Part shown: piece by piece, positions 56,945 through 64,000 of the stretch
How positions within the stretch are numbered: the stretch's first letter is position 1
Layout of the letters: every line of letters begins with the position of its first letter
Source: Tribonema minus
Taxonomy: Eukaryota; Sar; Xanthophyceae; Tribonematales; Tribonemataceae
NCBI GenBank assembly: GCA_017506865.1
Contig: JAFCMP010000125.1
Span: 154,003-218,002, forward strand
Direction: 5' to 3'
Length of the DNA: 64,000 bases
Translations under genes and position numbers: made by a program
Notes under the pieces: model-generated
Told to the model about the DNA's origin: nothing
Database searches by the model: none
The model's input: only the letters and a program-made list of their open reading frames with translations

Positions 56945-57479
56945 CTAGCGCCTGCGCACTGCACTTGTGGACTTGCATAAAAAAACATACGCCCCAAGGG
57001 AGGCTGAGTGTCCCATGAATTCCTAGGGTTTACTCACATGCAGCAGCCTAGTCTGTGCAGTGCACAGCTGCAGCCTGGGTGGCTGCTTTTGAATGGTAGA
57101 TGCAGGTGAGTTTTAAACAGGTATTCTGGCCATTGACTCGATCATGTAACGCACGCCATGCGTTACCACCAATGACCCCCCCGCTCCACCTGATTCATGC
57201 TGATTCATGCAATACTGACACGGGCAGCTGTATGTAAAGTAAACTATTTATGTAGCCTTCTGGCTTATGATGTTTCAACTCTATTATATTCGGCCGTTAT
57301 TAGGGCCCAGGGCAATTGGTTCGAACTAGGGGAACATTGCAGGAAAACCCCTTAACCGGTGAGACCCTTGAGTCTCCCCAGATGAAGGGTTGTGCTTGCA
57401 AGGCCTCGGTTCTTGTCACTCAGCTAGGATACCACGGCTCCAGGATAGAGACAACTGAAGCCAACAACCATCAACCATC
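56945..57479. other. boundary between hydrolase gene and retroelement
   Basis: No confident exon. It may contain the true 5' end of the hydrolase gene (minus) and the 5' LTR or leader of the retroelement (plus). I could not define an LTR because its partner lies beyond the window. Confidence 0.3.
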
Positions 57480-57525
57480 ATGGACCCGTCTAAATCAGCC
57501 CAAGCCAACGCTGCCCCATCTACAA
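57480..57525 (+). CDS. candidate leader exon of the gag-methyltransferase ORF
   Basis: ATG then DPSKSAQANAAPST, ending in A before a strong donor (GTAAGA) at 57526. The gag frame has no ATG between its opening and 59142, although coding clearly begins by 58723. An acceptor (ccatgtgcag) ends at 58722. Joining the two keeps phase (A plus AC makes an Asn codon). The intron would be 1197 bases. Inferred, not proven. Confidence 0.5.
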
Positions 57526-58099
57526 GTAAGACAGGCTTAACATAACAAATATAACCCCAACTTTGTTTCATGGCACCTACAGACAGTCCTTACCCACCCC
57601 TTGCTTCGCTCTGGCGGGCCCTGACGAACCAAGCTACACGTGCTCCTTAAATATCGTATCGTTAGCCCTCGCTTGCCCTCATCAACACGTGCTCTGGAGC
57701 GCCAACGTTGCTTTCCCGCTCCTTAACGTAGGCCAATTGACCGAATAGGAAATCGTCCAATCATTCAGTATCGGCCCTTCGCGAGGCGGACGCGCTGAGT
57801 GTTGGTTACCGCTCGTACTAACTGGAGGCAGCTACGAGGAGGAATTTAGCGCAGGGGTCGGTGTGCATGCACATTGTAAATATGCGCCTGCATGCCGCAT
57901 CCTTTGCTTGGTTGTGCCAGCTGTCGCTACCAAGTGAACACTGAGCAGCAGTGCTTTTATGCTGCGTGAGCCGCCCTAGCTCCAGTGCCTGTGTCGGAGG
58001 AATCATGCTTAGCAGCGGCTCACACACCCGTAGTTGCTTCGCATGACGTCGGCTGTTAACGCTGTGTAATTGAGATGATGAGGCTGACTGTCGAAAGCT

Positions 58100-58125
58100 G
58101 CGGTACGGGTTCTCCCGTACTGACT
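58100..58125. other. perfect 7-bp hairpin in the retroelement leader
   Basis: gtacggg, loop ttct, cccgtac lies in the stretch between the leader exon and the gag body. It could be a structured leader or part of an LTR. Nothing else was recognised from 57526 to 58722. Confidence 0.4.
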
Positions 58126-58722
58126 TGCACGGGCATTAGTGGGCTTGCGAGGTTACCCATCACCCCCCACCCTTTGTTTCTCGGCACCATCTGATGATGG
58201 TGTAATCGAGCTGATGATCACAGTTCGTCTTGCGAATGCGTCGACGCTCGCTTGAAGTTGCTACCCAGAGCAACTTAGGTAACGGTTGCATACCGGAGGT
58301 GTTGGATTGGTGCAGGCCACAATCAGCTAGGCAACAGCGTTAACTACGACGATAAACAGGTGTGCATATGGTGCTTGCGCAGCAACAACAGTAACTCTGC
58401 TCTGCCGCTGCCGCACTAGAATCAAATGCATTGAGACATAGCATGCCGCGGTTGACACGGTTGCGGGAGCCCGTGGTTCTACTGACTTGCGTGGCTATGA
58501 TTGGCAACCACATGCATCTCATGGGAGTGCCGGTGTGTTCTGTGCACGTCCCGGGCTGGCTAATTGCACGGGCGAGCGCACAGGGACATCCCATGTTCCA
58601 AGAGAAGCTCTCTTGATGAGTACTATAATAATTTTTGTTCTCCCAGGCTGATGGATATCTTATTGTTGGATGGTGAGGGGTATATTTGAGAGACTCAACA
58701 CATGATCCTGTTCCATGTGCAG

Positions 58723-61700
58723 ACTCGGACTCCTCCACGAAAAGAAAGGGGAGTAAGGGCAAGGCTGATGCGGCACCGGCTGACAAGCCGGAGAAGCCCG
58801 CGAAGAAGTCCAAGTCGTCAAAGGAGCCCGCAACCCCTCCTGCGCCGGCCGTTGGCGGTAGCGAGCGAGAGGCGGAGCTCGACGACGAGATATGCGCTGG
58901 CGCCGGTGACGACGCCAGCTCTGATGCGGGTGAGACTGGTGCCGGTCTAACCGTATCCAGAGCCCGTTATACCCGGCTGCTCGAGCTGTTGGCGGCCTCG
59001 CACAAGTCCGGGGCATCTGCCTCGGCGAGACTGTCTGCAGACGAGGTACAGCTGCAAGAACGTTTCCAGGACCTTGACGCCCAGGCTAAGGTGTTGCGTG
59101 GCCTGCGCGATGCTAGCAAGGAGGGTTCCCCTGAACGTACAATGTACAAGACGGACCTCTATGCGATCACGTACCAGCTTCCACGTCTTAAGGCGAGCAT
59201 GGAGCAGGTAGAAGTTGACCGCTGCGCGTACTCACAGAGATTCAGCGCTTTGGAGACTGCTCGCATAGAACTCGACGCAATCATGGATCGCGATCTTGGC
59301 GATGCAGATACACTGCGCCGTCTCAAGGCGTTCGAGAAGGTGCAGCTGGTGCAGCACTTGCAGGCAGGGCGTTTGGTCCAGGTTGCCCCGCCCCGCGTTG
59401 GCGTGGCGGCCTCGATTCAGATGTCTCATACTGCGCCGTCGAGCACTGGGGTCACCACGACCCCCAGCGACGATGGCAGTGAACCGTCCCGAGCGGACGG
59501 CGCTGACGCTGCTAACAGGGGCAAGGGAGACGTCTATGCGAAGGCTGGTAGGATTGCCGGCGTAGCCGACCTCTCTTCTCGCGTAGGTGTATGTGTCACC
59601 AGGCTTGACTCACTCACCGCTGCGCTGCGCTCCATGGCAGAGGACGTCAAGGTCCACGCTCTAAGTGTGGCCATAAAGGCGTCGAAGGACAAACCCTTAC
59701 TTTCAACTGTGCGCCTACTGTCCCTAGAGGTCGGCGGCAAGCGGAAGGGGTGGGAGCAGCTAACGTACGCAGAACGTTGTGCAGCCATAATTGAGCACTT
59801 CAACTCTGAAGCTGCCCAAGAGAAGGTGTACAATTCTCTACTTCAAGCCAGGCGTCTCCCGAGCGAGAGCCCTGGGGAGTTGGCTCTCCGCGTGCGGAAC
59901 ATGGTTGTACAGGCAGGTGGTAGCGAAAGTTCTCGTGAGTTTTCTGAAAAGCTTCACTACTTACGCCTCATCTCATCCAAGGAGCGGACGGCCGCTAGGG
60001 TTGCACTGGGGAGGGGCTGGCAGGACGCTGGTCTTGCGAGCATTCAGGAGCACATTGAGCGCACCTGGAACGGGAAAGCCCATGCCGCGAGCAAGGGCGG
60101 ACCCACGTCGCAGGATGGTTCTGACCGCGAGAGTTTGCGCGACGACGCGTCGCAAGCAAGTGACGCGCCGCGCCAGACGCCCTCTGCCTCGCAGATTGCG
60201 CGCAAGGAGAGGGCGCTGGCGGACAAGGAGAGGCGCCTCGCCAAAAAGGAGAAAGCCTTGGAGGTGCGAGCTGCTGCTGTAGCCGCCAAGTCGGCTCCGG
60301 CAGCCGCGCCCGCCAGGCGTGGGCCCCCCGCGCCTGAGCATGACAATTCAGGCATGGTGCAGTTCAACCCGCGTTCTCACTGGGTATGCTTTGACTGCCA
60401 GACAACGCTGCCGCGCGGTATCGCCGTTGACATGCATCGCAACACGCCCAACTGCCCGGCGTTTGATCCTTCCCGCCGCCCCCGCGCCGCACCGTACGGC
60501 GGGCCGCGCGGTGAGCCGCGCGGCGCGCCACCGGCGCATCAGGCGAATCAGTACACGCGGTACGGTCCCCGCCCCCCTTTTCCGCCCCCGGCTGCTATGC
60601 CGCAGGCGCCGGTCGTGGCAGCGGCGGCTGCTGCCGCTGCGCCAACGCCAGCGGAGGCGGACGAGTATCACAAGATGATGGCCTTTGTGGCCTGGCAGAG
60701 GGCTCAGGGTGAGTCTACTTCGCTCGCGCGCGCGCGTGCGGCCCTCTCAGGGGGTGGCACCAGCGGTGCGCGCGCCGCAGTTGAACTTGAACATGCTTTT
60801 GGTCAACGTGATATGTGCGTCTCCGCGTCCATCGCAACCTCACCACGTGAGCGCGCGCCTGGGCACAATGACGCCGTATTGCTGGCTATGTTGCATCCTT
60901 CGTTACCCAGCGTACCTTCCCTCGCGGAAGTGTCGCAGTCTACGGCTGATGCTAACATGCAACTTGAAGGTGATAGTGCAAACGATACTCCCCCATCAAA
61001 CACTGGTTCGCCGCATACGGTTACCATACCTAATGCAAGCGAATCGCCTGTCTGTGCTACCGCTGTGACACAGGACCCTGATGCTGGCATGCCAGTGGCG
61101 GGTGCAGCGCGGCATGTGACACACGCCTCCATATGCTGCGGCATTGGTGGCTGGGACGAGGGTTTAAAGCAGGCAAGTGTGGCAGGCCTTGTGGTGGACA
61201 CTCAACTTGCTGTTGACAAGTGCCCCCGCGTGTGTGAGGCGTACCACGAACTGCACCCTGGCACCCACAAGGTTTTAAACGCGTGCCTGAGCGATGATGC
61301 AGTAGCCATAGCACTGGCTGAACTGGATCCTGACCTCACCACAATGTCCCCCCCGTGCACAGATTATGCAAACGGGAGTGGCGTTGAGGGGGCAGCGGCG
61401 GAGGTGACGATCATGGCGGCGCGGCTGATTGTGAGGGCGAAGCTGCGCTGCTGTGTCATCGAGAATGTGGTATCCATGCTCAGCTCCAAGGCGTGGGCGT
61501 GCGCGCAGGCTTTGCTGCTGGCCCACGGCTACTGTCTCTATGTCAGCAAGCTGAAGGGGTCGGATTTTAGCATAGCGTGCCACCGGCGGCGGCTGTATGT
61601 GGTGATTGCGCGGGCAGGGGTTGGTGTCACGACCGCTATGGCACGGTTCGGGGCGTTAATTAATGCAATTCAGCGTTCATCATTACCCATGTCCGTACGG

Positions 61701-62246
61701 CGCGTTCTTCGCTGCCCTGAGCGCTGTTTCTTTTGGAAATCTCGCGTGAAGGGTACCAAGAGTGTGTATGATGCCGATGACTGCATGCCCAGCCCGGTCA
61801 GGCGGAACCCTGGAAAACCACCAGTGGATCTGGCTGACTATGTGGCTGATGATGAACATGATGCTGGCCCTGTGCAAAATGCAAGAGTACTGTCATTGCG
61901 TGAAATGGCTGTCCTGCTCACCTTTACACGTGACTTGCCATGCAAGGCCACCATTGAGGACATGAAGTTATGGCTTGTAAACTTAGTCATGCCACGCATG
62001 GCTTTTCACATTGCCGTTGGGCTTGTGGGATCTGGCATGCTTGATCTTCAAGTAGGCGCCCCTTGTCCCCGGGGTGTCCGCCTGGACCATGACCCTAGTG
62101 CACCCCCCCTGAATGGATGCTGCCAGGGTCTGAAGATTACATGCATGTGGCAGAGACTCCTACTGAGCAAGGCAAGGTGCAGGCTAGGGTTGCGGCCATC
62201 ACCGCACGATACAGTGCTTGGCAGTATGCAGTCACCCCTGATATGA
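58723..62246 (+). CDS. retroelement gag-like protein fused to a C5 cytosine DNA methyltransferase
   Basis: About 1189 residues if joined to the leader exon. The N-terminal part is Lys/Ala-rich and basic (KRKGSKGKADAAPADK), then helical gag-like sequence (KGWEQLTYAERCAAIIEHF; SPGELALRVRNMVVQ), a charged coiled coil (RKERALADKERRLAKKEK) and a Cys/His cluster (CFDC, then H and C) resembling a nucleocapsid zinc finger. From about residue 815 the C5 methyltransferase motifs run in order: I, SICCGIGGWDEGLKQA; IV with catalytic Cys in MSPPCTDYANGSG (codon 61356-61358); VI, CVIENVVSML; VIII, SIACHRRRLYVVIAR; a target-recognition region of about 100 residues; IX/X, SLREMAVLLTF and LVMPRMAFHIAVGL. All residues needed for methyl transfer to cytosine appear present. 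The stop is at 62244-62246, and the pol frame overlaps. Confidence 0.85.
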
Positions 62247-64000
62247 TATGTGCAGAAGGTTTGAACACAGGTCCTTGGTCTTGCACAGCGCTCAATGACT
62301 CGTGCAATGACTCAGACTCTGATGTTGATGAAGTTGAGGAAGAGGAACTTGTGCAGTCACACCCTAGCGGCTCCTCACAAGGTGCATACGCCAGTGAAGA
62401 CGAGCATCACTTTGACGACACGGTGCATGAGGCAACTCGCAGGCGTGGGCTAGGCAACCCTCGCGTGAGCGCTGTGGCTGCCAAGCTACACGATGAAGCG
62501 AGCCGCTCACAAGCCGCTGAAGTGGATCCCGCCTCGGTGAGGCCGGGAGAGACAGTTGTGTTGCCAAGTGGCCAGCCCAGCAAGCAGCGGTTTGCCAGGC
62601 TGAAGGCACGCGTGCAGCACCAACGTGGGTTCAAAGAACGAGACTTTGTCTCATTGCTGGACCCCGGCGCTGAGGCAGGCATCATGGCAAAAGCAACGGC
62701 GGATGAGCTATCTCCAGGGACGACATGCCCTCTTGAGAAGGGGGACCATTCAGTCATAGAACTGGCAGACAGTCGCACACAGGTCAAGATCGTAGGCGCT
62801 TTGCACCTCACCTTACGGTTTGGTAACAAGCTGGTGCGGCACAAGTTCTACATTGTGGACTTGGCCATCACCACCATTCTAGGCAGCGACTTCTTTGGCA
62901 TGTACAAAACCCTCTTTGACTATGAGGATTTGACATACCAGCCGTTAGGTTCGGACGGCCCAAAGTTGAAGATGCTAGGCAGCGAGGCAGCGCATGGGAC
63001 GGTGTGGCAAGGCGCTAAGACCGCAGGGGCTGTGAAAATTAGCCCCAAAGTACCAGCCCCCCCTGCGCATCGTGCCGTGTGCCTGGTGAATGACATACTC
63101 ATTCCAGCGCACACCGAGGTGAACGTTGAAGTTGCATTACACCCACCAGTGAAAGGGCTGAGCCCCTACTCGGCAGTAATACAACCCGCAATGTCTCAGA
63201 CGATGTTGAAGTTGCAAGAAAGGGGCGTAAAGGCCGCCATGTCGGTGGATATTGTTGGCGCGCACAACCCTGTGCGCGCACGCATGGTAAACTTCTCAGA
63301 CCAGCCGGTGCTTATGGCCAGAAACACCTTCATTGGTGAGGCACGGCCGGCTTCGCCTGAGGATATCATTGAGTTGGAGGACGCATCTGCGACCAAGCTT
63401 GAGCAACAGCTCTTGCAGGTGGCTGCAGCTCACCACCCGAACAGCGAGTTCAGCTACGCTGCAACCGCGGCGCTGCGAGCAATTGCATTGGGGAAGGCTG
63501 CTGGTACCTATGGTGCTGCTAATGTGTCTGCTGCTACACCAGGCACAGAACGCACTCGTACCACACAGGAACCCTGCACTGAAGCAGAGCTACGCGAGAT
63601 GCTACCCACCAAAGGTGACCTTCATGATATGAAAGCCCCCGATGGTAGGCCATATGCTGAGCATCTGATGGATGTGTTCAACGAATTCGCGAGCGTGTTT
63701 GCAAAGGACCCCAAAAATCCGACAGTGACAAACCTCATGGAGTTTGAGATTGACACTGGTGATGCAATGCCTATCGCTGAAAAGGCTAGGAGGTGGGCGC
63801 AAAAGGAGGCAGAGTACATCATGGAACATGTCAAGGCCATGCATGTGCGCAAGCAAGTGGAGCCTAGCAATGGTCCATGGGCATGCAACCCAGTACTAGC
63901 AAGGCAAGGTGATCAGATACGATTTTGCGTGGACTTCCGCCGTCTCAACGCTGTCACGAAGCGCGACAGCAGAGGTCTAGGCAACATCGATGATATGGTG
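62099..64000 (+). CDS. retroelement pol: aspartic protease and reverse transcriptase, 3' truncated by window
   Basis: Frame -1 to gag, open from just after TAG at 62096-62098 to the window end, with no ATG needed. An acidic linker (DSDVDEVEEEE) leads to a retropepsin-like domain: FVSLLDPGAEAGIM at about 62643-62684 and ITTILGSDFFG near 62870-62900. The active-site triplet is DPG where DTG or DSG is usual. A connector follows, then the N-terminal part of a Ty3/Gypsy reverse transcriptase from about 63730 (FEIDTGDAMPIAEKARR; QVEPSNGPWACNPVLARQ; IRFCVDFRRLNAVTKRD). The catalytic YxDD box lies beyond the window. It is presumably made as a fusion with the upstream ORF by -1 slippage. Confidence 0.85.
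62103..62109 (+). promoter_or_regulatory. candidate -1 frameshift site (C7 run)
   Basis: In the gag frame this reads CCC CCC C. Both codons can re-pair after slipping back one base onto ACC CCC. It is the first slip-prone site after the pol frame opens, five bases past the TAG at 62096-62098. The overlap of the two frames is 148 bases. Confidence 0.5.

Follow-up and report, generated by a model that had tools for sequence, protein, structure and literature searches.

Results

An LTR retrotransposon truncated by the contig end

The window analysed here is a stretch of 64,000 nucleotides from Tribonema minus (contig JAFCMP010000125.1), and positions 57216-64000 of it hold the 5' 60% of a Ty3/gypsy long terminal repeat (LTR) retrotransposon of about 11.4 kb, truncated by the contig end at 64000, that carries a C5-cytosine DNA methyltransferase (MTase) in its coding region. 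All features given below lie on the plus strand. The element opens with a 355-bp 5' LTR (57216-57570, TGACAC...TTTCA) that matches the DNA behind pol of a second copy, on contig C157, with 2 differences in 355 positions, and window positions 57567-64000 match that copy at 99.8%. Since a genome search found the 355-bp stretch recurring in pairs about 11.03 kb apart on contigs C512, C422, C407, C130 and others, it is an LTR, and the spacing gives the element its length. As in other Ty3/gypsy LTR retrotransposons, the paired LTRs are bounded by TG...CA, a candidate primer-binding site (PBS) read from the sequence, TGGCACCTACAG (TGGCACC..., 57571-57582), lies directly 3' of the 5' LTR, and a purine tract recognised by eye, GAGAAGGGGGAG, stands immediately 5' of the 3' LTR. 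A DIRS-like arrangement of split repeats, first suggested by the match between the LTR and the C157 copy, was dropped once the ordinary LTR-internal-LTR order was seen.

Among ten copies tested for a target-site duplication, four (C512, C422, C130 and C517) show one of 4 bp and four (C407, C345, C218 and C66) lack it, while for C78 and C295 the piece examined did not show the end of the 3' LTR. C512 and C422 have common flanks, and the 5' flank of the window copy (38-39 bp compared) is common to C512, C422 and C407, so that some copies may represent haplotypes or duplications of a single insertion; copy counts are thus not counts of independent insertions. At L046:2960-3100 (C157, around 1117020) two copies lie head to tail with no intervening LTR, the 3' part of one joining the 5' internal part of the next.

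Coding frame and domain order

The C157 copy is one unbroken frame of 3104 codons that runs from a gag-like region through a C5-cytosine MTase and protease motifs to reverse transcriptase (RT), RNase H and integrase, and unbroken frames of about 3100 codons occur on several contigs. Pfam places DNA_methylase at aa 817-981 and RVT_1 at aa 1746-1902 of the C157 frame, followed by RNase H and the integrase zinc finger and core; weak matches to Tf2-1 SH3 and to a Tudor-like domain fall under the cut-off, the latter, behind the integrase, scoring 21.5 bits against a cut-off of 27.2 (PF21743, E=2e-4). The window copy is split into a first open frame (58677-62246) and a pol frame (62099-64000), which overlap at 62099-62246, where the frame breaks after aa ~1144, immediately downstream of the MTase; other copies exist in which the frame is unbroken. 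Its gag-like region (58723-61097), seen by eye in the open frame 58677-62246, has a Lys-rich start and a CxxC...H....C stretch, and Pfam finds no gag match in that frame. The MTase domain (61098-62012) differs from that of C157 at 1 of 305 residues, and 630 of 634 residues of the pol frame equal those of the C157 copy. Retropepsin-like motifs, LLDPGA and ILGSDF, span 62654-62893; Pfam matches no protease in the window family, gives weak matches under the cut-off in the L092 subfamily and one above the cut-off in the environmental protein P0020.

The original prediction, which had read gag-like sequence, C5 MTase motifs I, IV, VI, VIII and IX/X, protease and RT on one strand, was right about this content. 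Its Ty3/gypsy assignment also stands, on evidence from elsewhere: since the contig stops at 64000, the window includes no more than about 90 nt of the RVT_1 domain (63911-64000, by mapping aa 1746-1902 of the intact copy), and Pfam detects neither RT nor protease in the window pol frame. The order RT, RNase H, integrase that defines the class was found in another copy of the window family and in lineages A3, A7, B and C; RNase H, integrase and the 3' LTR, which the original prediction had proposed to recover past 64000, were found in other copies. The proposed start at 58723 does not hold, as the element begins at 57216 with its LTR and 58723 directly follows a predicted splice acceptor.

That acceptor, CAG at 58720-58722, belongs to a predicted spliced start inside the LTR. 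A putative first exon of 46 nt (57480-57525), read from the sequence, comprises 15 codons from an ATG plus one base and is followed by the donor GTAAGA; the predicted intron (57526-58722) contains the PBS, and splicing would restore the gag frame, which has no ATG before aa 156, in phase 1. The same order of ATG, donor, PBS-like site and open frame is seen in the C201 subfamily (L152), whose MTase is 81% identical to that of the window at a Ks of about 1: there a putative exon at 387-447, with its ATG at 387 and donor at 448, would precede a PBS-like site at 507 reading TGGCACCCAACAG by 59 nt, with the frame open from 1607. Phase and donor edge (ACAA/GTAAG) are the same as in the window and the acceptor edge, CATGTGCAG/ACTC, is identical. 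In a piece of a third subfamily (L153) no LTR exon was found in the part read, and its LTR may lie outside. Since the predicted intron holds the PBS, the spliced RNA initiated in the LTR would serve translation of the polyprotein and the unspliced RNA would be the one packaged.

The methyltransferase domain

The window domain matches Pfam DNA_methylase with E=9.7e-12 (aa 817-981 of the open frame 58677-62246) and contains motifs I, IV (SPPC, catalytic Cys at 61356-61358), VI (ENV, 61461-61469), VIII (RxR) and IX/X in order; its motif order and fold are those of C5-cytosine MTases. All 13 MTases aligned from lineages A-D keep the catalytic Cys, ENV and RxR unchanged. An AlphaFold2 model of the domain with ten relatives reached pLDDT 80.4 and pTM 0.82, with residues ~213-259, in the target-recognition part, poorly modelled. 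By Z score its best fold matches are M.HaeIII (24.9, 265 residues aligned, 3.2 A) and M.HhaI, and the scores of DNMT1, DNMT2 and DNMT5 lie about 4 Z or less from that of M.HaeIII; the top Foldseek match is plant MET1, and no DNMT3 is among the fold matches listed, which excludes nothing. In sequence-profile comparison with the PDB, DNMT2 chains rank best, followed by bacterial or phage-type enzymes (HhaI/HaeIII) and DNMT1, with DNMT5 weak (E=0.076 and 1.9e-4). No DNMT3 chain appears among the 52 (A1, E<=1) or 53 (A2, E<=0.1) matches listed; the PDB contains DNMT3 structures. The poor alignment to C5 MTases that could have undone the original prediction is not what we see, since Pfam, PDB-profile and fold matches are all good.

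It is possible that the enzyme, like DNMT2, methylates RNA, either the genomic RNA or the primer tRNA. The DNMT2 chains that head the PDB sequence matches of both profiles belong to a tRNA methyltransferase, and LTR retrotransposons rely on a tRNA primer. However, in structure the domain is closest by Z to the DNA enzymes M.HaeIII and M.HhaI, lineage D taken alone matches HhaI best, the DNMT2-like protein of the same genome falls outside the element-borne clade, and young copies show an excess of C>T changes at CpG (both described below). We therefore regard RNA methylation as quite unlikely.

Copies and lineages

The element is a young multicopy family, and the MTase is a fixed Gag-Pol domain in several T. 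minus lineages. The copy count called for by the original prediction gave 123 places scored among 378 candidates for PF00145 and, with the window MTase as query, 150 among 402, with identities falling in steps of about 96-100, 77-80, 65, 53, 47, 41 and 38%; additional queries turned up places belonging to lineages B/C, D, E and A7. These lists overlap and are lower bounds, so that they do not sum to a total. At least five lineages (A-E) of element-borne MTases are present. Where the 5' internal DNA of the element finds a match (36 places), an MTase lies 2.5-4.5 kb downstream at 32, the exceptions being C412, C113, C190 and C183; the 36 include two short matches of 70-71% and result from merging 37 rows, two of which were pieces of one place. 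Viewed from the other side, an MTase starts 1.5-4 kb upstream on the same strand at 42 of the first 50 RVT_1 places listed; two of the other eight are too near the contig start, two have an MTase 6 and 12 kb upstream, and for the remaining four none is among the matches listed.

These numbers bear on the caveat, raised at the outset, that a host MTase gene might have inserted by chance, into one copy alone, and on the possibility of an assembly artefact. The window copy, whose frame is broken and which ends at the contig end, could by itself have been read in that way, but the MTase recurs at 32 of 36 places, unbroken frames of about 3100 codons stand on several contigs and relatives occur in other assemblies. 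The copy survey refutes this explanation, and we give it practically no weight.

By Pfam, the MTase is accompanied by RT, RNase H and integrase in lineages A (three subfamilies), B and C, and by RT and integrase in D; in the C and D copies read the coding sequence is split among several frames, and lineage E was read for MTase and RT alone. A chromodomain above the Pfam cut-off lies behind the integrase in lineage B (L088:222-9029, residues 2724-2779) and, again behind the integrase, in P0127, an environmental relative of lineage C (residues 2668-2719). In lineage E (L098, C15:516200-518200; L014), motif IV reads STRC instead of SPPC, ENV is kept, and the MTase lies behind the protease-like motifs, which it precedes in lineage A. 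C15 had been picked as a control for an MTase-free sister lineage in the same genome and was rejected, as it carries a divergent MTase.

Among the 120 proteins listed, four environmental relatives (P0016, P0018, P0020 and P0127) have the MTase upstream of RT; P0015, P0017, P0019, P0021 and P0022 begin near RT, so that a missing MTase there is no sign of absence. A comparison of P0001 residues 795-1110 with long proteins gave nothing at E<=0.001 among 5582 candidates. The environmental gypsy-like polyprotein P0133 (2297 aa) has a weak C5-MTase-like stretch (SPPC...ENP, residues 1272-1352) between RNase H and integrase, possibly a separate capture.

Trees and capture history

In a tree of 51 MTases, the 20 element-borne ones form a single clade (98/96) against 31 others, namely 24 viral-contig MTases (of 48), four database matches, a DNMT2-like piece and two orphans of the T. 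minus genome; five rows of an earlier tree were left out. The original prediction had called for an RT tree and for a tree of the MTase against DNMT1, DNMT3, DNMT5 and the known retroelement-borne enzymes; in the MTase tree built here the element-borne enzymes hold together, but it contains no DNMT1, DNMT3, DNMT5 or DNMT6 and so gives the clade no position relative to the eukaryotic DNMTs. In an initial pair of trees, MTase and RT alike recovered the groups (B,C), (D,E) and A; D and E are long-branched, and their join is weak in the first MTase tree (87/78) and gone in the 51-MTase tree. In a wider RT tree the MTase bearers fall into more than one group and the best tree needs three changes. 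A single clade of MTase-bearing RTs is not rejected (approximately unbiased (AU) test, p=0.11; p=0.31 for A+D+E), the test covering 40 selected MTase-free rows, with P0133 and rows of uncertain MTase status left out. Read together, the trees are compatible with between one and three captures, or with exchange among elements.

A close viral donor was sought and rejected, a scan of viral contigs with A1 giving 73 pattern matches and no relative; the corresponding A4 scan gave 53 loci at 21-30% identity. The DNMT2-like protein L004, whose best PDB match is DNMT2 (E=1.8e-38), lies outside the element-borne clade and is probably the host DNMT2. Also outside the clade are three intronless, dcm-like C5 MTases of 367-390 aa, L001 (C223:936374-939871), L002 and L003, of which L001 matches TIGR00675 above the cut-off (E=3.4e-31) and L002 under it. 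L002 and L003, which lie on two contigs, look like near copies of each other, and all three are perhaps of viral or bacterial origin.

Selection and CpG footprint

The MTase is under purifying selection: Ka/Ks is 0.115-0.295 in the 10 of 17 pairs whose Ks exceeds 0.1, with Ks from 0.146 to 1.9 (0.115, 0.139, 0.155, 0.168, 0.207 twice for the same element pair, 0.239, 0.230, 0.295 and 0.138). One of four RT pairs could be scored, at 0.019, two being saturated and one without synonymous change. It is conceivable that the MTase domain is carried along as a passenger without catalytic activity, or serves Gag-Pol structurally, as its constraint is lower than that of RT and motif IV is altered in lineage E. 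However, the catalytic Cys, ENV and RxR do not vary among the 13 aligned enzymes and Ka/Ks stays well under 1 at a Ks of about 1, which makes an idle domain very unlikely.

Young copies also show a CpG bias in their C>T changes. Across 25 copies, aligned over 3.7 kb each, C>T changes on either strand affect 13 of 542 CpG and 12 of 1615 other sites, a 3.3-fold excess (P=0.004); across 27 copies the counts are 27 of 542 and 32 of 1615 (P=0.0006). Changes other than C>T have no CpG bias (P=1.0 and P=0.33, respectively). Three of 30 loci were dropped as rearranged (L035, L038 and L042), and the run with 25 copies also went without L036 and L045. The footprint fits CpG methylation of the copies, which may be the work of the element's own enzyme or of host DNMT5.

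Discussion

We propose, as a moderately likely account, that the MTase of this retrotransposon is packaged in the Gag-Pol particle and marks the element's own cDNA, so that new insertions arrive methylated. The spliced RNA from the LTR would be translated into Gag-Pol while the unspliced RNA, which keeps the PBS, is packaged; the MTase would travel with the particle, be freed by the protease and methylate the cDNA, chiefly at CpG, either before integration or as it takes place. Insertions already marked in this way could then be maintained by host DNMT5, and the likeliest gain would be a lower cost to the host, or lower detection by it.

Several observations weigh against this proposal. Host DNMT5 could account for the CpG C>T excess, and over the element as a whole strong depletion is not evident: CpG observed/expected is 0.86 in the window element and 0.81 in the C157 copy (by part, gag 1.03, MTase 0.77, pol 0.70 and LTR 0.46), near the 0.88-1.06 of six stretches of the rest of the window, although pol and LTR are lower. 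Of seven near-identical MTase pairs, one lacks synonymous changes and six have Ka/Ks of 0.12-0.93, two of these reaching 0.63 and 0.93; the stronger constraint on RT and the altered motif IV of lineage E point the same way. Within lineage A, moreover, RT joins A3 to A7 while MTase joins A3 to A1/A2 and others, and the placement of A4 differs between the two trees as well.

Alternatively, the MTase may act mainly in trans, on host chromatin or competing elements, with the marking of neighbours or of the host genome being what is selected. The high copy number (123 scored PF00145 places) would suit such a role, as would the integrase tails with a Tudor-like match under the cut-off or, in lineage B, a chromodomain, which may steer to chromatin. 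However, the domain shares one frame with RT and is thus expected to be made with the particle, and we consider action in trans unlikely. Methylation of the element's own cDNA is the account that we prefer.

T. minus is reported to encode DNMT5, HELLS and a putative CDCA7, and one further protein groups with a DNMT4-like clade (PMC10538959); the excerpted text of that source names no DNMT1 for T. minus. DNMT1 is named for Discosporangium, Schizocladia and Chrysoparadoxa (PMC12459048), and brown algae are described as having no DNMT1, DNMT3 or DNMT5, with DNA methylation reported lost (PMC13076208). In our own search, PF12047 and PF02182 (host DNMT1 and UHRF1) have no match in the genome, which is uninformative since control genomes are equally silent.

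DNMT5 is known elsewhere as a maintenance enzyme. It is tempting to go further and suppose that retrotransposons are a main source of de novo cytosine methylation in T. minus: an MTase captured in the distant past, once or very few times, would have become a core domain of most Ty3/gypsy lineages, the element methylating its new copies and host DNMT5 keeping the marks. We hold this wider scenario to be doubtful, yet if true, the host would rely on its resident transposons to initiate methylation, which would bear on how DNMT5-reliant genomes gain new marks. Whether element-borne enzymes supply de novo methylation becomes testable in a DNMT5 species that is a relative of brown algae (PMC10538959, PMC13076208).

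Among known systems, retrotransposons with cytosine MTases are documented from dinoflagellates and a charophyte (PMC5890265), and DNMT3 members are described in retrotransposons of streptophytes and dinoflagellates (PMC12344493). As the original prediction had anticipated, the present host belongs to neither group, T. minus being a xanthophycean and thus a stramenopile. For stramenopiles among others, a general statement citing other work mentions Ty3/Gypsy and DIRS elements that encode DAM and DCM (PMC6338049). In Ectocarpus, a Sola transposon carries a 4mC/6mA-type MTase, and the Ty3/gypsy element Gypsy-10_Ec32, with a homologue reported in T. minus, has a C-terminal Tudor domain (PMC12477816), as may the window family, where the C-terminal Tudor-like match is under the cut-off (PF21743, E=2e-4); the excerpted text of that source mentions no cytosine MTase in a gypsy element. 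We found no published report of the T. minus MTase family in the literature outside subscription journals and preprints.

The features by which DNMT-carrying retrotransposons were recognised (de Mendoza 2018), an MTase inside the element, many copies and purifying selection, are all found here. The closest counterpart is KnitGypsy-Dnmt3 of Klebsormidium nitens (PMC5890265), likewise a Ty3/gypsy element with several copies and a C5 MTase inside the coding frame that is under purifying selection with its key residues conserved. KnitGypsy-Dnmt3, however, has a DNMT3-type enzyme in its Pol frame and DIRS-like split repeats (PMC5890265), whereas the T. minus family lacks such repeats and has ordinary LTRs, an MTase upstream of the protease motifs, and matches to DNMT2, HhaI, HaeIII and DNMT1 with no DNMT3 listed; it also differs in belonging to another host supergroup and in forming several deep lineages in one genome. 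Since the published description sets the Klebsormidium element apart by its DNMT3-type enzyme and DIRS-like repeats, a capture independent of that in Klebsormidium appears likely. SymbioDIRS-Dnmt3 and SymbioLINE-Dnmt of Symbiodinium, present in hundreds of copies, resemble the T. minus family in carrying C5 MTases, in having several subfamilies and in the purifying selection on the MTase, but are of the DIRS and LINE classes, and SymbioLINE is CpG-depleted, which is not clear in T. minus (PMC5890265). The MTase beside 42 of the first 50 RT places listed, together with several constrained deep lineages in a stramenopile, suggests that Ty3/gypsy elements can live with such an enzyme over the long term, and that its presence is not a rare accident.

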